Shown here one piece after another: positions 3,195-18,135 of a DNA stretch of 22,068 nucleotides. The stretch comes from an uncultured Duganella sp. (GTDB taxonomy: Bacteria > Pseudomonadota > Gammaproteobacteria > Burkholderiales > Burkholderiaceae), in contig CAMLSG010000074.1 of the NCBI GenBank assembly GCA_946482635.1, positions 1 to 22,068 on the forward strand, in the 5' to 3' direction. Positions within the stretch are counted from its first letter, which is position 1, and every line of letters begins with the position of its first letter. A program made the position numbers and the translations under genes. The notes beneath the pieces are model-generated. The model was given only the letters and a program-made list of their open reading frames with translations, had not been told where the DNA came from and ran no database searches.

Positions 3195-4251
3195 GTAGTT
3201 TCTCCACAATTTGATCGGCCAGCGCCGCGTCGATGCGGGCGCCGACTGGAACGACCCAGATTCTTGGATCGTTGCGTAATTCTTCAATTTGCCAGCATTT
3301 TACTGCATCCTTCTCCGTCACCAGAATAAAGTCGGCCTCGATATTGGCGAAAGGACGGTCTCTAAAGTCGTGATGATCGGGCAGCGGCAGCTCTTGCGGC
3401 TGGATTCCTGCCGCGCGCAACATGCCGAAAAATCGGGCCGGATTGCCGATTCCCGCGGCAGCAGCCACTCGAAGCCCGCTCCCCTGCCCTGATGGCGCGG
3501 CGCGCTGCGCCAATTCGGCCAGCGACATGCGCTCGCTACGGTCGCCAAGGCGCTCTGCGACATCGCCTACGAGGCGCATCTGCCAAGGCGCTCCCGCCTG
3601 GACGCCGGCCGGCGCCACGGCGGCAGACAGCGCAGCGGTCAGTTCGGGCGCATTGACCACGGTGAAGTCCCGCTGCCGGGATGGCGGTTCGCGCAGGGGC
3701 CCGGCGGGCAAGGTCCAGCCATTGCCGACGCCCCGGCCGTCGAACAGCACGATTTCCACGTCGCGCGCCAGGGCGTAATGCTGCAAGCCGTCGTCCGTGA
3801 CGATCACGTTGATTTCCGGATGGGCCTCCAGCAAGGCGCGCCCCGCGGCTGCACGCGCACGGCCGACGAACACCGGGCAACCGGTGCGGGCGGCAATCAG
3901 TACCGGCTCATCCCCCACCTCGGCCGGCGTCGACCCAGCGCCGACTTCTCGCGGCGCGGCATCCTTGCTGCCAAATCCGCGCGAAACAACGCCCGGCCGA
4001 AAACCGGCCGCGCGCAGCGCGTCGACCAGCCAGATGGTGAGCGGCGTCTTGCCGGTACCGCCAATGAAAATATTTCCCACGACGACGACCGGCACCGGCA
4101 GGCGCTCGGCGTGCGATACGCCAACCGCATACAGGCCCCGGCGCAAGGCGGCCAGTCCCCGGAACAGCAGGGACAGCGGCCAGAGCGCGCATGCCAGCGC
4201 GCCCCGCCGCAACCACTCGCGCGAGAACGTCGTCTCGAGGGAAGAGGCCAT
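3175..4251 (-). CDS. lpxK: Tetraacyldisaccharide 4'-kinase
   Basis: Phosphorylates the 4' position of the lipid A disaccharide at the inner face of the inner membrane. 358 residues, typical length. Seen: a hydrophobic, arginine-flanked N-terminal segment (about 16-44) that anchors the enzyme, the P-loop [11 protein letters not shown] (59-69), VSRGFG (89-94), VGDEPVLIA (112-120) and VTDDGLQH (151-158). The ATG shares one base with the exbD stop (TAATG), so translation is probably coupled. The C-terminus overlaps the next gene by 20 bases. Confidence 0.97.
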
Positions 4252-4676
4252 TACTTGGCCTGGGCGGTCTGTGCCTCGAAGGTCACGCGCTCAAAGCCCG
4301 CCAGGCGCGCCGCTTCCATCACGTTGATCACCATCTGGTGCATCGCGAACTGGTCGGCATTGATCTTGACGATCGGGTTGGCGTCCTTGGCGGCGGACTT
4401 CATCTGCTCGGCCAGGCCAGGCACGTCGTGGAAGGCCACGGGGGTGCCGTTGATGGTGTAGTTGCCCTTGGCATCTACCGTCACGTTCAGGTCATTCGGC
4501 TGCTCCACCGTCTTTTCCGCATCGGCGGTCGGCAAGGTGATTTTCAGCTCGGTGAACTTGCTGTAAGTGGTGGTGATCATCAGGAAGATCAGGATCACCA
4601 GCAGCACGTCGATAAACGGGATCAGGTTGATCTCGGGATCTTCGCGCTTCTGGCCTCGGCGGAAATTCATCGCCAT
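4251..4676 (-). CDS. exbD: ExbD/TolR-family biopolymer transport protein
   Basis: Inner-membrane partner of ExbB in the proton-driven motor that energises TonB. 141 residues with one transmembrane helix at about 19-36. The motif INLIPFIDVLLVILIFLM carries the conserved intramembrane aspartate (D23) that conducts protons in this family. The rest is a periplasmic domain. It starts at an ATG with GAGGG upstream, 15 bases after exbB, and its stop overlaps the lpxK start. A TolR role cannot be excluded from sequence alone, but no tol/pal genes are near and two TonB-dependent receptors lie in the same window. Confidence 0.93.
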   Translation of the reverse strand: MAMNFRRGQKREDPEINLIPFIDVLLVILIFLMITTTYSKFTELKITLPTADAEKTVEQPNDLNVTVDAKGNYTINGTPVAFHDVPGLAEQMKSAAKDANPIVKINADQFAMHQMVINVMEAARLAGFERVTFEAQTAQAK

Positions 4677-4691
4677 AAACTAATCCCTCGC

Positions 4692-5297
4692 TTACTTGCG
4701 GGTGTTGTGGACCACGTCCACGAACTTGACCGCCTGCTGCTCCATGTCGATGACGAAGGAGTCAACCAGTGCGCGGAAGTGGCGGTAGAACACCAGGGTC
4801 GGCATTGCGATCGCCAGGCCGAAACCGGTGTTGTACAGCGCTACCGAAATACCGTGCGCCAGTTGCGCAGGATTGGCGCCGGCCGAGTTCTGCGAACCGA
4901 AGATCTCGATCATGCCGACCACGGTACCGAACAGGCCCATCAGCGGCGCCAGGGTGGCGATGGTGCCGAGGGTGGTCAGGAAGCGTTCCAGCTGGTGCGC
5001 CACGGCGCCGCCCGCCTCTTCGATCGATTCCTTCATGACGTCGCGAGGAGCGTTGACATTACGCAACGCTGCCGAAAGAACAACACCCAGTTGGGACGAT
5101 TTTTCCAGCTTGGTGATGATGTCGTTGTTGATATTTCCGCTGCGATAGACGCGTACCACTTCGTCCAGCAGTGTCTTCGGAATGATGCGCGAACGGCGCA
5201 GGTACATCAGGCGTTCAACGATCAGGGCAAGGGCAACGATGGAAGCGATCAGCAGAGGCCAGATCGGCCAGCCGGCGGCTTGGAAAATTGCGAGCAA
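4692..5297 (-). CDS. exbB: ExbB/TolQ-family proton channel protein
   Basis: MotA/TolQ/ExbB-type proton channel subunit, 201 residues. Three hydrophobic segments are visible: about 11-29, 106-130 (the conserved TLAPLMGLFGTVVGMI) and 145-168 (GISVALYNTGFGLAIAMPTL). The start is TTG at 5295-5297: AGGAG lies six bases upstream, and an ATG in the leader (5300-5302) is in another frame. It is the first gene of the envelope cluster. Upstream lies the 0.9-kb repeat array, which must contain its promoter. Confidence 0.93.
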   Translation of the reverse strand: MLAIFQAAGWPIWPLLIASIVALALIVERLMYLRRSRIIPKTLLDEVVRVYRSGNINNDIITKLEKSSQLGVVLSAALRNVNAPRDVMKESIEEAGGAVAHQLERFLTTLGTIATLAPLMGLFGTVVGMIEIFGSQNSAGANPAQLAHGISVALYNTGFGLAIAMPTLVFYRHFRALVDSFVIDMEQQAVKFVDVVHNTRK

Positions 5298-6191
5298 GAC
5301 ATACTCCTAAGAAAGAAAACCTAAACGCGCAATGTAGCCTGTCGAGAGCTAACAGGCAAGTGTGCGCATTCTTCACATTTTCTGTGGACAACATTGTTGG
5401 CAATCCAACTATTTCCACTTAAGTACATGATTTGATGATGATTTTTTCTAATGCAAAAATTTTCATCAGCTCTGGAAGGACCAGTTCTGCACATATTCTG
5501 TGGACAAAATTGTGGGGAATGGCGGCTTTTATATGCTAAGCCTTTGATCGCAAAGCGAATTATTCTCAAGCACAAAAAATGCGCATTGGCACTTTTCCTG
5601 CTTTTCCCCAGCTGTGCACTTCTTCACATATTCTGTTGATAAGATTGTTAGCAAGGCTATGCTTGAGGGGTAAAGTACTTGATCCATAAGGACTTTCTTG
5701 CCATGCGTAAAAATCTCGCATTGATGAATCCCGGCCGAAAAGTGGACAATTTTTGCCCTTCTGCACAAATTCTGTGGACAATATTGTGAGCAAGGCCGCA
5801 GGAGGTAGTGCAAGTCCTTGATCCGAAAAGACAATCAATTCACGCCCATTTTTTAGGCAGCAATTTTCCCCACAGCTTCTGTGGATAAAATTGTTAGCAA
5901 GGGACAGACTGGAGTGCCAAGTCCTTGATTTCTAAAATGAAAGTTACCCTGCAAACATTTTCATCACGCAATCTACGGCTGGAAAGAGTTCCTCACATAT
6001 TCTGTGGATATCTTTGTGCGTAACAGCCGGCCGCTATCGCAAAGTCCTTGATCTATAAGGGAATTCGTAAATTGCCCGCTTATGTAGCATTGGCGTTTAC
6101 CCTTAATAATCATGTGTTTACAAAAAATACTTGCGGTATGAAGTGATATATGACATAAGCATGACCGCTTTCAAAAAGTGTGGACAGGTCC
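5298..6191. other. AT-rich intergenic region with no credible gene
   Basis: About 890 bp between the divergent exbB and xseA genes, clearly richer in A+T than the flanks. Short open frames exist on both strands, but their translations only echo the repeats and lack ribosome sites. It must contain the promoters of both flanking genes; I could not pick either with confidence. Its main content is the six-unit repeat array annotated separately. Confidence 0.85.
5369..6060. repeat. Six-copy array of a 72-nt composite repeat with DnaA-box-like sites
   Basis: Units start at 5369, 5485, 5620, 5759, 5866 and 5989. Each unit reads TTCTKCACA, 5 bases, TGTGGAYAA, 3 bases, TGTTAGCAA-like, about 18 variable bases, then a module close to AAGTCCTTGATCTATAAGG. 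The distance from the first box to TCTGTGG is 12 in all six. The distance to the AAG of the second module is 53 in five and 52 in the first. Spacers between units are unique and 35-67 bp long. Unit 5 contains TGTGGATAA, the exact complement of the DnaA box TTATCCACA; three others have TGTGGACAA. Unit 1 is the most diverged. Function is inferred only: a DnaA-binding cluster or origin-like element. Confidence 0.85.
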
Positions 6192-7535
6192 ATGATCAAT
6201 AGCCCCGAACCCAACCAGGTCATCTCAGTCAGTGCCCTCAACCAGGCCGTTGCACGCCTGCTGGAGCGCTCTTTCCCCTTGCAGTGGATATCTGGGGAAA
6301 TCTCGAATTTCACTCGAGCAAGCTCGGGTCATTGGTATTTCACCCTGAAAGACGATGCAGCCCAGGTACGGGCCGTCATGTTCCGCGGCCGCGCCCAGTA
6401 CGCCGGCTTCGTGCCGCGCGAAGGCGACAAGGTCGAGGTGCGAGCGCTGGTCACCCTGTACGGGCCGCGCGGCGATTACCAGATCAATGTGGAGGCCATC
6501 CGCCGCGCCGGCGTGGGTTCCCTGTTCGAAGCTTTCCAGCGCCTGAAGGAACGCCTGGCAGCTGCCGGCCTGTTCGACAGCGAACGCAAGCGCGCCCTGC
6601 CCCTGTTCCCGCGCACCATCGGCATCGTCACCAGCCCGCAGGCGGCAGCCCTGCGCGACGTGCTGATCGCCCTGCGCCGCCGGGCGCCGCACGTCAACGT
6701 GGTGCTCTACCCCACCCTGGTGCAGGGCCAGCAGGCCGGCGCCCAGATTGCCTCCGCCATTGATACGGCATCGCGCCGCGCCGAATGCGATGTGCTGCTG
6801 GTCGTGCGCGGCGGCGGCAGCATGGAAGACCTGTGGTGCTTCAATGAGGAAGTGGTCGCTTACGCCGTCGCCAATTGCAATGTGCCGGTCGTATCCGGGG
6901 TTGGCCACGAAACCGACTTTACGATTTGCGACTTCGCTGCCGACGTACGCGCCGCCACCCCAACCGCTGCCGCCGAACTGGCCGCGACGCCGCGTGCCGA
7001 CTGGCTCGGTTCCTTGCGCGCCGACGCCACCGACCTGCGCCGCGCCATGCGCCGCGCCCTCAGCGACGCCACGCAAACCCTGGACAGCCTGCAGCGCCGC
7101 CTGCTCAGCCCGACGGCCCGCATCGCCCAGCAGCGCATGCAGTTGCAAAGCCTGTCCACCGCGATGATGCACGCCACCCGCAATCCCTTGCAGCAGGCGC
7201 GTTTCACGATCGACCGCCTGGCAGGCCGGCTGGCGGCCCGCAAGCCCGACGCCAGCAAAGCGCGGGCAGCGATGGAAGCCTTGCAGCACCGGGCCGGCGC
7301 CAGCATGCGCGCGCAACTGCTCCAGCGTCGCGACGCCCTGAATGCGCTGTCGGCGCAACTGGAATTACTGAATCCCCAGCGCACGCTGGAACGCGGCTAC
7401 GCCATCGTCACCGATGCTGCAGGCGCCGTGCTGCGCGACCCCGCGCATATCAAGCCGGGACAGTCGCTGGGCGTCCGCCTGGCCGAAGGCAGCGCCGACA
7501 TCGGCGTAGCCACCGTGCAGCCAACGCTTAGCTAG
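6192..7535 (+). CDS. xseA: Exodeoxyribonuclease VII large subunit
   Basis: Catalytic subunit of exonuclease VII, which degrades single-stranded DNA from both ends together with XseB. 447 residues, normal length. Seen: N-terminal OB-fold (about 11-105) with ISGEISNF and [10 protein letters not shown], then the nuclease domain with [14 protein letters not shown] (143-156), [15 protein letters not shown] (204-218) and [10 protein letters not shown] (235-244), then a long alanine/arginine-rich helical region and the conserved end ERGYAIV. I chose the ATG at 6192 (AGG five bases upstream); a GTG at 6180 is in frame but has no ribosome site. xseB is not adjacent; the next gene is sodB. Confidence 0.97.
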
Positions 7536-14190: not shown

Positions 14191-14688
14191 ATGAGTAGTT
14201 TTGACGCAACAAACAAGCGCCTGAAAAACATTCATACTCGCATCCCGGAATTCCCGGAAGACCTGGTACGCCTGCTGCGCATGACCTATCACGTCCAGAA
14301 GCGCATGAAGGATCTGGCGAATTCGGTGCTGCGCAAGTACGACCTGGTCGATGCCAGCTACATGGTGCTGGCGGTGCTGTATGGATCGGAGAATGAGACT
14401 TCGACCGCGTCCAACCTGGGCGAAGCCTGCATGGAAAAGCCGGCCAACCTGACGCGGGTCTGCAACGACCTGGAAGCGCAAGGCCTGATCACCCGCGGCA
14501 ACCGCCCGGGCGACCGCCGCTGCGTGATGATCACGCTGACCGACGCCGGCCGCAACCTGATCGAGCAAGTGATGCCGGAAGTCTGGTCGCGCACCACCCG
14601 CGCCTACGACGGCTACAACGGCGACGACATCCGCGTGCAAGAGCAGCTCTTCAAGCGCCAGCTTGCCAACCTCGACGTCACCGCTTAA
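14191..14688 (+). CDS. MarR-family transcriptional regulator
   Basis: 165 residues. An N-terminal dimerisation helix pair (about 20-50) is followed by a winged helix-turn-helix (about 55-125): TASNLGEACMEKPANLTRV is the recognition region and NRPGDRRCVMITLTDAGR the wing with the family's D-R-R. Three cysteines (80, 91, 111) leave redox sensing possible but unproven. The ATG at 14191 has CAGGAG about ten bases upstream. MarR proteins usually repress efflux or stress genes; here no target lies beside it, since both neighbours point away or converge. The FNR-type box upstream links it to oxygen supply. Confidence 0.93.
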   Translation: MSSFDATNKRLKNIHTRIPEFPEDLVRLLRMTYHVQKRMKDLANSVLRKYDLVDASYMVLAVLYGSENETSTASNLGEACMEKPANLTRVCNDLEAQGLITRGNRPGDRRCVMITLTDAGRNLIEQVMPEVWSRTTRAYDGYNGDDIRVQEQLFKRQLANLDVTA

Positions 14689-14702
14689 AAATCAAGGACA
14701 TT

Positions 14703-14810
14703 AAAAAAGGGGACGTAACCCTTTTCCGCCGGCGGCGGAAAAACGTAAAAAAGGGGACGTACCCCTTTTCCGCCGGCGGCGGAAAAAAAAGGGGTACGTC
14801 CCCTTTTTTT
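14703..14810. repeat. Tandem plus inverted GGGGACGTACCCC repeat, bidirectional terminator
   Basis: Two direct copies of a 44-bp unit (14703-14746 and 14747-14790), each starting AAAAAAGGGGACGTA and containing CCGCCGGCGGCGG. An inverted copy GGGGTACGTCCCC (14791-14803) follows, with a run of nine T. The second unit and the inverted copy fold into a long hairpin (14747-14810) with A/T runs on both sides, so it can stop transcription of the MarR gene and of the converging small membrane protein gene, whose stop codon touches it. Confidence 0.85.
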
Positions 14811-15122
14811 TTATTTCTGCGGCTTGGTGTGCTTCATGGCGTAGTACAAGTGCTGCCACCAGTGCTCGCGTGACTGCACGCTCAGCATGCACTGGCGGTC
14901 GATCTCTTCCTTGAAGACGCGGTCGCGGCATTGCATATTGGCCAGCGCATTGCGCTGGTTTTCGGCATTCACCACGGCCAGCACGAGCCAGAACACCAGC
15001 CCGGACAGCAGGACCACCAGCGTCCAGGCCAAGTGGTTGACCCAGGTGCGCTGCACCAGGCCGGCCTCGTCAGGGGCCGACTCCCGGAACGCCCGCATCA
15101 CCCCTTCTTCACGTTCTTCCAT
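14811..15122 (-). CDS. Hypothetical single-pass membrane protein
   Basis: 103 residues. An acidic/polar N-terminus (1-30) is followed by one transmembrane helix (about 31-51, LAWTLVVLLSGLVFWLVLAV) and a hydrophilic C-terminal part with two cysteines (65 and 78). I do not recognise a family. It starts three bases after the dsbA stop, so the two are one operon. If the C-terminus faces the periplasm, the cysteine pair would be a plausible DsbA substrate; this is inference. Charge bias does not settle the topology. Its stop codon adjoins the bidirectional terminator repeat. Confidence 0.75.
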   Translation of the reverse strand: MEEREEGVMRAFRESAPDEAGLVQRTWVNHLAWTLVVLLSGLVFWLVLAVVNAENQRNALANMQCRDRVFKEEIDRQCMLSVQSREHWWQHLYYAMKHTKPQK

Positions 15123-15898: not shown

Positions 15899-17842
15899 TT
15901 AGAAGTCGTAGCGCGCCGAAACTTTCAGTTGGCGGCCGCTGTTCGGGTAGATGCCCGCGCGGCAGCTGAAGGCCTGGCTGTAGTGGTCCTTGTCGAACAT
16001 GTTCAGCGCCATCACGGCCAGCTCCCATTGGCCGAACTTGCGCGCGTAGCGGCCGTCCACCACGGTATAAGCCGGCATGCGGGCGTCGCAGCTGTTGTCG
16101 AAATCGCTGCCGTAGCGCTGCTTGCCAACGCGCTGCACGCCGATGTCGGCGCTCTGGCCGTCGGATGGCAGCCATGCCAGGCGCACGGTCAGGATGTTCT
16201 TCGGCACCAGCGCCAGCTCACGGCCGGCGTTCGGGCCGGAGCGGAATTCGGCATCCACTTGCTGGAAGTGGCCCTGCACCTGCCATTCAGGCGCGAAGCG
16301 GTAGCTGCCGTCCAGCTCGAAGCCCTTGCGCTGGGTTGGCGCCAGGTTGGTGTTGGCGCCGAACAGGCCTGCGGTCGGATCGTAGTAGATCTCGTTGTCC
16401 AGGTTGTGGCGGAAGATGCGCGCGTCAACCTTGGCGGCGCCCTGCACATAACCGAGGCCGATTTCCGCATCATGCGACACCTGGGTTTCCAGCGGCTTGT
16501 TCGCTTGCGGGGTGAAGCCGTTCTCGTCGGAGTTGGCGACGCGATAGCTCTGGCCAACCTTGGCCCAGGCGGTCAGGCCCGGCGCGGCCAGCATGCTGCC
16601 CTGCACTTCCCAGGCGTTGTTGGCTTGCTTCACGCTGTAGGTGGCAGTGGTGAACGGCACCGGATCGACCGAGTCCTTGTCGAACAGCTCGCGGCGCACG
16701 CCGGCCGCCAGGCGGAATTGCTGCGGACCGGAGAATTTCATCTCGTCGCGCAGGTAGAAGGCCTTGCTCTTTTGCGTGGCGTCGGCAGCCGAGAAGGAGG
16801 CGGTGGTAACGCGGTTCCAGCGGCCGAAGTCGAAACCGGCTACCAGTTCGTTCAGCAGGCCATCGAACTGGCCCAGGTGGCGCACGCGCGGAGAGAACTG
16901 GGTCTGCTTGGTGTCGTAGGCGGAGCTTGAAACGCCCCATGGGCTGAAGTAGGTGGCTTCCGCTTCCTTCTTGCGGTGCGACAGTTCGGCCGCCAGGTCG
17001 AAGGCGCCGATCTTGTGCTCCCATGCCGCGGTATAGCGGTCGCTATCGAGCTTGCCGAAATCGTTCGGGGTCAGGGTCTGGCGCGGGTTGGCGTAGAACT
17101 GGGCTTCGGTCAGGCTGCCGGCAAAGCGCTGGTCCTGGCGCGCGATATCGGCGCGCAGCGAGAAGCGGCCAACACCGGTATTGAACTGCACGCCGCCGTT
17201 GAAGCGCGACTGCTTGAATTCATTGTTGTCGCGGTAGTTGTCGGAGCGCTGGTGGCCGGCCGACGCGTCGATGGCGAAATCGTCGAAGCCCTGGGCCACG
17301 CTGGCGCGCACTTCGCCGCTGTCGAACTGGCCCAGTTCTGTGAACATATTGCCGCTGCGCTCACCGGCCTGCGGGCGCTTGGTGGTGATCTGGATCACGC
17401 CACCGGTGGCGCCTTCGCCATACAGCACGCTGGCGCCGCCGCGCATGATGTCGATGCGCTCCACCATGTCAATCGGGATGGTGGACAGGGTGGCGCTGGA
17501 CAGTTCGTTTTCGTTCAGGCGCACGCCATCCAGCACGATCACCACGTTCTGGTCGCTGTTGGTGCCGAAGCCGCGCAGGTCGAGGCCGAAGTCAGGGCTG
17601 CCGGTCAGGCTCTGGCGGCCGTACACGCCGCCGATCTTGCGGATCGCCTGGTTGACGTCGGAGACGCCGGAGCGGCGGATATCGGCCGCGGTAATGGTGG
17701 TGGCGCCGATCGGCAGCAGCGACGGATCGCTGGCAAAGCGGGAACCGGAAATGACGACGGTGTTCGATTGCGCTTGGGCCGCTGCGGCAAAGCACAGGGC
17801 AACCGCTGCGGCAACGGCGCAGCGCGAGGTGATGAAGGTCAT
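15899..17842 (-). CDS. btuB: BtuB-like TonB-dependent vitamin B12 receptor
   Basis: 647-residue outer-membrane receptor for cobalamin. Signal peptide 1-24 (cleavage after AQA), TonB box TVVISG (28-33), plug with NQAIRKIGGVYGRQS, DLRGFGTNSDQNVVIVLDGV, and the barrel start IDIMRGGASVLYGEGATGGVIQ; it ends VSARYDF with the terminal phenylalanine. The B12 assignment rests on the cobalamin riboswitch in its leader, since the barrel alone would not prove the ligand. The ATG at 17840-17842 has no clear Shine-Dalgarno sequence, consistent with a controlled start. No other B12 transport or synthesis gene is in the window. Confidence 0.9.
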   Translation of the reverse strand: MTFITSRCAVAAAVALCFAAAAQAQSNTVVISGSRFASDPSLLPIGATTITAADIRRSGVSDVNQAIRKIGGVYGRQSLTGSPDFGLDLRGFGTNSDQNVVIVLDGVRLNENELSSATLSTIPIDMVERIDIMRGGASVLYGEGATGGVIQITTKRPQAGERSGNMFTELGQFDSGEVRASVAQGFDDFAIDASAGHQRSDNYRDNNEFKQSRFNGGVQFNTGVGRFSLRADIARQDQRFAGSLTEAQFYANPRQTLTPNDFGKLDSDRYTAAWEHKIGAFDLAAELSHRKKEAEATYFSPWGVSSSAYDTKQTQFSPRVRHLGQFDGLLNELVAGFDFGRWNRVTTASFSAADATQKSKAFYLRDEMKFSGPQQFRLAAGVRRELFDKDSVDPVPFTTATYSVKQANNAWEVQGSMLAAPGLTAWAKVGQSYRVANSDENGFTPQANKPLETQVSHDAEIGLGYVQGAAKVDARIFRHNLDNEIYYDPTAGLFGANTNLAPTQRKGFELDGSYRFAPEWQVQGHFQQVDAEFRSGPNAGRELALVPKNILTVRLAWLPSDGQSADIGVQRVGKQRYGSDFDNSCDARMPAYTVVDGRYARKFGQWELAVMALNMFDKDHYSQAFSCRAGIYPNSGRQLKVSARYDF

Positions 17843-17865
17843 GGCTAATACGATAGAAAGAGTAT

Positions 17866-17887
17866 CCGCCTGCGTCCCCGCAGCCGG
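17866..17887 (-). promoter_or_regulatory. Expression-platform hairpin candidate of the btuB leader
   Basis: CCGGCTGCG, a 4-base loop, then CGCAGGCGG on the minus strand, between the riboswitch core and the btuB start. It lacks a strong T-run, so control of translation is at least as likely as termination. Confidence 0.45.
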
Positions 17888-17920
17888 AATCCACAGAAGA
17901 CGAACCCTGCGCGGGCGCGC

Positions 17921-18097
17921 TTCCACCTCCCTGGCCGGTATCCGGGCTGGCAAGACTGACCGGGCCACCTTCCTGCGCAAGCAGTGGTTCATTGGCGCGG
18001 CCTGCCGTCATCAAGACGGCGCTTGCGTACCGTTGCGGGGGCAGCACATTGCGTTTCCCGTTTAACTGCCCCCGCGAACAGGGGGCGGGCACCAAGG
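17921..18097 (-). ncRNA. Cobalamin riboswitch
   Basis: On the minus strand, in the right order: TTGGTGCC, GTTAAACGGGAAACG (about 18052-18066), the B12 box GCTGCCCCCGCAACGGTA (18028-18045), CCACTG, AGGAAGGTGGCCCGG, and the closing AGCCCGGATACCGGCCAGGG with GGAGGT. These match the conserved core of adenosylcobalamin-type riboswitches. It would shut off btuB when cobalamin is plentiful. Confidence 0.93.
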
Positions 18098-18104
18098 CGC
18101 CGCC

Positions 18105-18110
18105 ATTATA
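18105..18110 (-). promoter_or_regulatory. -10 box of the btuB riboswitch transcript
   Basis: A perfect TATAAT on the minus strand, ending seven bases before the riboswitch core, which places the transcript start right at its 5' end. The -35 region is poor. Confidence 0.6.
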
Positions 18111-18135
18111 CGCTGCTTAAAGTTGGCATAAAAGT

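Follow-up and report, generated by a model that had tools for sequence, protein, structure and literature searches.

A tandem array in the exbB-xseA gap of Duganella and its relatives shares the layout of the DnaA-recharging sites of Escherichia coli

The literature that we found treats DARS, the DnaA-reactivating sequences, as a pair of single sites present in E. coli and related bacteria. In the MG1655 genome the three DnaA boxes of DARS1 lie at 813107 (+), 813121 (-) and 813133 (-), between bioD and uvrB, and those of DARS2 at 2969135 (+), 2969149 (-) and 2969161 (-), between rppH and mutH. The accessible part of PMC10380432 presents the head-to-head arrangement of boxes I and II as characteristic of DARS and essential to it, and the corresponding parts of PMC5742627 and PMC8682772 describe it likewise. 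The sections of PMC5742627 available to us state that IHF is required at DARS2, that datA, which inactivates DnaA, needs IHF too, and that the complexes formed at datA are mainly head to tail. They also report that the core-IBS-FBS spacing of DARS2 is conserved in E. coli-proximal beta- or gamma-proteobacteria; DARS-like sequences are mentioned in many proteobacteria (PMC10380432, in part) and in Vibrio cholerae (PMC6090056, in part). Since three reviews, as far as their accessible parts go, report DARS-like sequences, a lone DARS-like core in this class is in itself no novelty.

The locus described here belongs to an uncultured Duganella sp. and lies in a stretch of 22,068 nucleotides, the whole of which we analysed and call the window. 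Its exbB-xseA gap holds six repeat units at 5369-6053, found as ungapped 64-nt repeats starting at 5369, 5485, 5620, 5759, 5866 and 5989. Judging from the sequence, we think it probable (roughly 0.7) that the units are tandem DARS-type elements, that is, a multi-copy DARS. The features are the following:

4251-4676, exbD, beyond exbB
4692..5297, minus strand, exbB (MotA/TolQ/ExbB family), left flank, with its 5' end at 5297
5369..5403, plus strand, unit 1 core: box I 5369-5377 (+), box II 5383-5391 (-), box III 5395-5403 (-)
5420..5432, minus strand, unit 1 IHF-type site, 1 mismatch to WATCAANNNNTTR
5485..5519, plus strand, unit 2 core: box I 5485-5493 (+), box II 5499-5507 (-), box III 5511-5519 (-)
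5537..5549, minus strand, unit 2 IHF-type site, 1 mismatch
5620..5654, plus strand, unit 3 core: box I 5620-5628 (+), box II 5634-5642 (-), box III 5646-5654 (-)
5672..5684, minus strand, unit 3 IHF-type site, 2 mismatches
5759..5793, plus strand, unit 4 core: box I 5759-5767 (+), box II 5773-5781 (-), box III 5785-5793 (-)
5811..5823, minus strand, unit 4 IHF-type site, 1 mismatch
5866..5900, plus strand, unit 5 core: box I 5866-5874 (+), box II 5880-5888 (-), box III 5892-5900 (-)
5880-5888, minus strand, unit 5 box II, exact TTATCCACA
5918..5930, minus strand, unit 5 IHF-type site, exact match to WATCAANNNNTTR
5989..6023, plus strand, unit 6 core (xseA-proximal): box I 5989-5997 (+), box II 6003-6011 (-), box III 6015-6023 (-)
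6041..6053, minus strand, unit 6 IHF-type site at offset 52, 2 mismatches
6108..6120, plus strand (the core's own), unit 6 second IHF-type site at offset 119, 1 mismatch
6180..7535, plus strand, xseA (exonuclease VII large subunit), right flank

An earlier note on this DNA had described a six-copy array with three boxes and fixed 5- and 3-bp spacers in each copy, and this is what we find: the boxes stand at offsets 0 (+), 14 (-) and 26 (-) in 6/6 units. It was equally right about the irregular unit spacing of 107-139 (start to start we measure 116, 135, 139, 107 and 123), about the exact DnaA box of unit 5, about the AT-rich setting (the GC content of 5001-6000, 0.46, is the lowest 1-kb value in the composition table of the window) and about the lack of dnaA, dnaN and rep nearby, as none is present among the 12 window ORFs classified. 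Its count of about 18 DnaA sites is generous, because box III is weak: relative to the E. coli consensus TTWTNCACA, box II has 0-1 mismatch in all six units, box I has 1-2 (in the forms TTCTKCACA and TTCCYCACA) and box III has 1-3. As to the extent of the unit, the box trio stands but the unit is longer than the trio, since each copy carries an IHF-type 13-mer at offset 51 or 52.

Boxes with at most one mismatch to TTWTNCACA number 15 in 5300-6180, against a mean of 2.8 and a maximum of 8 in 200 dinucleotide shuffles; over the whole window a loose box count is mildly high (26 versus 16.6 in shuffles, a value reached by 2/100 of them). With a matrix built from 196 units, taken from the window and 30 same-genus loci and including the six window units themselves, the window cores score 44-55 bits versus at most 11.8 in 500 shuffles of the region, and the remainder of the window scores -10.2 or lower. 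Because the 196 units had originally been picked with a fixed-spacing pattern, we re-tested the spacing from box II alone. At the 159 TGTGGAYAA sites of the arrays, the best spacer to box I (range 0-12) was 5 in 144 cases, with 12 ties and three sites at 7, and the best spacer to box III was 3 in 132 cases, with 26 ties and one site at 5. Helical phasing between units was weak (R 0.30-0.34 for periods of 10-11, n = 165 spacings), and therefore the distance from unit to unit is not read as meaningful.

The IHF-type sites were missed by the earlier note. About 17 nt past box III lies AAGTCnTTGATT, which corresponds to the IHF consensus WATCAANNNNTTR when read on the opposite strand. On the minus strand, the best IHF-type match falls at offset 52 in 182/196 units and at 51 in the other 14, with no mismatch in 75 units, one in 66 and two in 55, and the positions that separate it from box III (35-52) are variable across the 196 units. 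At offsets other than 51/52, up to 61/196 units match IHF with two mismatches or fewer on some strand (49 on the forward one), in part through overlap of the same motif. A second IHF-type site (at most one mismatch) is found at exactly +119 on the core strand in 20/196 same-genus units; all 20 are the xseA-proximal unit, unit 6 of the window among them, and no other offset between 66 and 147 exceeds five units.

DARS1 and DARS2 have cores with the same 0/14/26 layout as the window units, and the central sequence of DARS2 is similar as well: its core reads TTATTCACCTTTTCTGTGGATAGAGTTGTGAAGAA and that of unit 3 reads TTCTTCACATATTCTGTTGATAAGATTGTTAGCAA. We ran the unit matrix over 440,001 bases of MG1655, selected so as to include DARS1, DARS2, oriC and datA (for datA at the position that we take it to occupy in this strain), a design that tests ranking and is not a genome-wide search. 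DARS2 came first (26.0 bits) and DARS1 second (15.5), followed by a further box group in the DARS2 region (11.1), a site at the oriC edge (8.6) and one in the datA region (4.2). With the spacers blanked, the 5/3 arrangement scored 20.7, versus 17.1 or less for the others (spacings of 0-11 in each gap, the other gap being held). An Infernal model of the unit, run with default filters, missed both DARS cores in E. coli and returned only two partial matches beside that of DARS2 (13 bits); the case rests on the plain matrix because the matrix found the two cores and Infernal did not.

DARS2 is also intergenic and mid-arm (2.97 Mb), like the array. The two 13-mers that we take as IBS1 and IBS2 sit 3 bp apart, in agreement with the published spacing. 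The IHF-type matches of DARS2 are at +93 (minus) and +109 (plus), and no unit has an IHF match with one mismatch or fewer at 92-94 or 108-110; the same-strand site at +109 differs from that of unit 6 at +119 by ten bp, one helical turn. DARS2 has a single core where the window has six, shows no counterpart of the +52 minus-strand site common to all units, is flanked by rppH and mutH instead of exbB and xseA, and has Fis sites; the Fis consensus GNNYANNNNNTRNNC has three exact matches in 5300-6180, compared with a mean of 0.8 and a maximum of 4 in shuffles. DARS1, like the array, is found upstream of a DNA-repair gene; it differs by its single core, its lower matrix score and its gap with bioD and uvrB, in which WATCAANNNNTTR has no match with one mismatch or fewer, and one with two at +121. 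The DnaA reactivation locus, one among several roles proposed in the earlier note, thus appears well supported by the core geometry of the E. coli DARS, which is kept in relatives.

The comparison with datA bears on a different role, that of a sink, in which the array would titrate DnaA or, together with IHF, promote ATP hydrolysis as datA does, so that initiation is delayed. Like datA, which has several DnaA boxes and an IHF site that, in the part of the source cited above, it needs, the array gathers many DnaA-type sites at one locus, alternating with IHF-type ones, and the datA region even has one facing box pair, 4392906 (+)/4392918 (-). However, the spacer of this pair is 3 bp and not 5 bp, and the region has no three-box 0/14/26 core, which all window units have; it peaks at 4.2 bits, far from the two DARS. 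The mainly head-to-tail complexes described for datA also fit poorly, and fixed spacers would be needless for a pure sink. We find a sink unlikely. It predicts an effect of deletion opposite in sign to that of a DARS.

The DARS-type geometry is kept in relatives; its lack there had been one of the refuting conditions named in the earlier note. A blastn search with the gap gave matches in 36/36 same-genus genomes and in 1/24 genomes of other families. The 30 same-genus loci have 5-8 units each (a lower bound where flanks end), with ExbB in 29 and XseA in 29; L024 and L040 each come without one of the two within their flanks. We also took the best 80 of 588 candidate named xseA loci, some of which have short upstream sequence. 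Among these 80, 30 have 2-7 units, 23 have one and 27 none, with top matches in Massilia eburnea and Pseudoduganella violaceinigra; 189/190 cores are on the xseA strand, and elsewhere in 547,819 bases no match reached 12 bits. Arrays occur in records of Massilia, Pseudoduganella, Duganella, Rugamonas, Janthinobacterium, Undibacterium and Collimonas, and single cores in those of Achromobacter, Bordetella and Aquitalea, among others. In the other families of the order, with one genome each, 21/30 have one core at xseA (13.5-40.7 bits, three of them only 13.5-18.7), always on the xseA strand and 145-423 bp upstream of the gene, and 9/30 have no core of at least 12 bits there. Within the family itself (best 30 of 60 genomes), 11 loci have at least two cores, 12 have one and seven have none within about 1.5 kb upstream. 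The element is therefore not indispensable, as these nine families and seven family loci do without a core. Matches with E<=0.01 were obtained in 307/399 genomes order-wide and 131/185 class-wide, counts that may include other DnaA-box pairs. In seven complete relatives the array lies at 19-34% of the chromosome from dnaA (the length of G021 being rounded), to be compared with 20.6% for DARS2 and 32.9% for DARS1 from oriC in MG1655. One family genome, G061, shows two DARS-type groups, C1:1427779-1429407, which XseA adjoins, and C1:5094452-5094948. DARS-type matches were also seen in other loci of the order (L105, L107, L108 and L113 among them), with XseA, ExbB, PriA and HemE not found within about 1.5 kb.

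A sister locus exists. Ten same-genus genomes each have two further matches outside the array, the second being weak in G021 and G001, and in the seven complete ones these matches are 96-236 kb from dnaA. The seven loci that we read (L283-L289) are all hemE-priA gaps. In each of them both cores follow the 0/14/26 layout, and at least one is accompanied on its own strand by an exact IHF-type site at +119 or +120. Elsewhere in the order a core of at least 12 bits (one of only 12.4) stands upstream of priA in 11/30 other families (L295, L297, L299-L302, L306, L307, L310, L315 and L319); in all 11 it is on the strand opposite to priA, and in 11/11 an IHF-type match with one mismatch or fewer is present at +117-120 for at least one core. 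The number of cores per hemE-priA locus is two in the genus and mostly one in other groups, with at least four in G044 (L319). This locus therefore has the same core as the array and the IHF-type site at +117-120 of the xseA-proximal unit, but its cores run opposite to the downstream gene, whereas those of the array are on the xseA strand.

The array could also serve transcriptional control, with DnaA and IHF regulating the divergent exbB and xseA promoters and linking either gene, or both, to replication. In other families the 21 single cores, all a few hundred bp upstream of xseA and on its strand, would suit this role, as would the presence of a core in 49/55 named loci with ExbB and in 4/25 without (best 80 of 588). 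We nevertheless regard it as improbable, for cores of this type, with IHF, are also present at a second gene pair, hemE-priA, six 35-bp cores are more than one promoter should require, and 5250-6250 has one sigma-70-like match versus 1.9 in shuffles. Two Duganella records have one core and no ExbB within 3 kb. In G015 (L282), moreover, xseA and the proximal unit are about 9.6 kb away from the other five units, and these five exbB-side units are still strong (46-55 bits). The array of L282 lies at 4599 and 14265-14940, and a very long ORF of repetitive sequence occupies part of the split of about 9.6 kb.

The copies resemble one another and stand in tandem, as those of a dispersed or selfish repeat without function might, a worry that the earlier note had raised in the form of a unit widely scattered over unrelated loci. 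What we find in ten same-genus genomes is that the strong matches are the array, followed by the hemE-priA pair and a few weaker scattered ones. When genomes are compared one to one, the closest copy of a unit belongs to the other genome in 708 cases and to the unit's own array in 324 (14/31 loci); this is the fair count, a figure of 82/87 units closest to another genome being biased by the many other genomes on offer. The units are not recent duplicates, since they are nearer to the copies of another genome than to their own neighbours. Boxes, spacing and IHF-type sites are kept while positions 35-52 drift. All this makes a functionless repeat hardly credible.

The earlier note had further considered a secondary origin or a remnant of plasmid iterons, for which the AT-rich DNA and the clustered DnaA-type boxes might speak. 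We see very little room for either. In one complete relative, G028, read in 20 stretches, there is no skew reversal at the array (3.05 Mb), around which the skew is -0.031, -0.0005 and -0.023; the sign changes between 1.4-1.7 Mb and between 4.6-4.9 Mb, with dnaA at 5.20 Mb. Positive values prevail on the arc that runs from 4.9 Mb to 1.4 Mb, and negative values between 1.7 and 4.6 Mb, where a single value (at 4.26 Mb) is positive but near zero. In the seven dnaA loci read out of nine, the other two starting at a contig end, one or two exact TTWTNCACA boxes are present within 1.5 kb upstream of the gene, and across these seven regions the unit model gives one weak partial match. No rep gene is among the classified window ORFs, and across the order the element is both old and kept in synteny in the exbB-xseA gap.

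Returning to the DARS-type reading, the distribution of the sites suggests an order of events. The xseA-proximal unit best matches the xseA-proximal unit of the other genome in 177/182 genome pairs (14/31 loci). A core with an IHF-type site near +119 is common to this unit, to the single cores of other families and to the hemE-priA locus, and for this reason looks ancestral; unit 6 is likely the ancestral copy. The site is present at +118-121 in 17/21 single cores of other families and near +119 in 10/23 named single-core loci, and in the named arrays it is at +117-121 in 19/30 proximal units versus 1/137 others. The +52 site (two mismatches or fewer) occurs in 163/167 cores of the 30 named arrays and in 7/23 named single-core loci (all from the best 80 of 588). 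Five of the seven are Oxalobacteraceae-named records (L210, L213, L229, L233, L234) and two are MAGs without a family name (L224, L240). The +52 site therefore seems to have come after the ancestral core, with multiplication last. As 21/30 other families have one core, 17 of them with the +118-121 site, the array appears, on sequence grounds, to have expanded from an older DARS2-like element.

By analogy with E. coli, ADP-DnaA would occupy boxes I and II as a head-to-head pair, a further DnaA would be held by box III against box II, and IHF would bend the DNA beyond box III. The dimer would then lose its ADP, and the apo-DnaA would leave and bind cellular ATP; so reloaded, it would become competent to start replication at oriC, countering the inactivation driven by Hda. 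Hda was found in 8/8 genomes asked, and therefore ADP-DnaA should be produced; IhfA was found in 8/8 as well. The DnaA of the nearest available genome is 55% identical to that of E. coli and keeps D269, R281, R285, L290, R334, R399, H434 and T435, which presumably include DNA-binding residues. The kept residues also include those that the available part of PMC5742627 names for oligomerisation and ADP release. The 5-8 units found at the locus in the genus would raise the number of reactivation centres, and with it the reactivation per chromosome, and the mid-arm place would set the dosage of the array. The array would in this way help to fix when enough ATP-DnaA exists for initiation.

The layout, which is that of the DnaA-recharging sites of E. 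coli, suggests that this family times the copying of its chromosome by a bank of such sites where E. coli uses single ones. A fuller scenario, to which we give slightly less than an even chance, is that in Oxalobacteraceae a single DARS2-like element of the exbB-xseA gap, with a core and the +119 IHF site, gained a phased +52 IHF site and multiplied to as many as eight cooperating units, forming a "DARS bank". Together with the two-core hemE-priA DARS near the origin, multi-copy DnaA reactivation would then be a main clock of initiation. In this scenario, bending by IHF from one core to the next could pile the units up as a single nucleoprotein structure.

The array, the fixed +52 IHF module, the exbB-xseA location and the hemE-priA sister locus are new. 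In titles and abstracts, a body of text that leaves most subscription papers outside, we found no description of DARS arrays or of the exbB-xseA and hemE-priA sites, the terms for the latter being unspecific. If the reading is true, up to eight cores in another family would mean that the dosage and layout of DARS are evolvable controls of the cell cycle. The series 0, 1, 2 ... 8 units at one syntenic place would be a natural means to learn how DnaA recharging scales with the number of sites, and the exbB-xseA and hemE-priA gaps make DnaA control outside enterics a testable question.

An RNA element was considered too and rejected: at gathering thresholds, the sole Rfam hit in the window is a cobalamin riboswitch away from the array. 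This riboswitch (RF00174, 59.5 bits, 17916-18111, minus strand) overlaps the listed 5' end of a 697-aa ORF (15899-17992, minus strand), the true start of which is probably further in.
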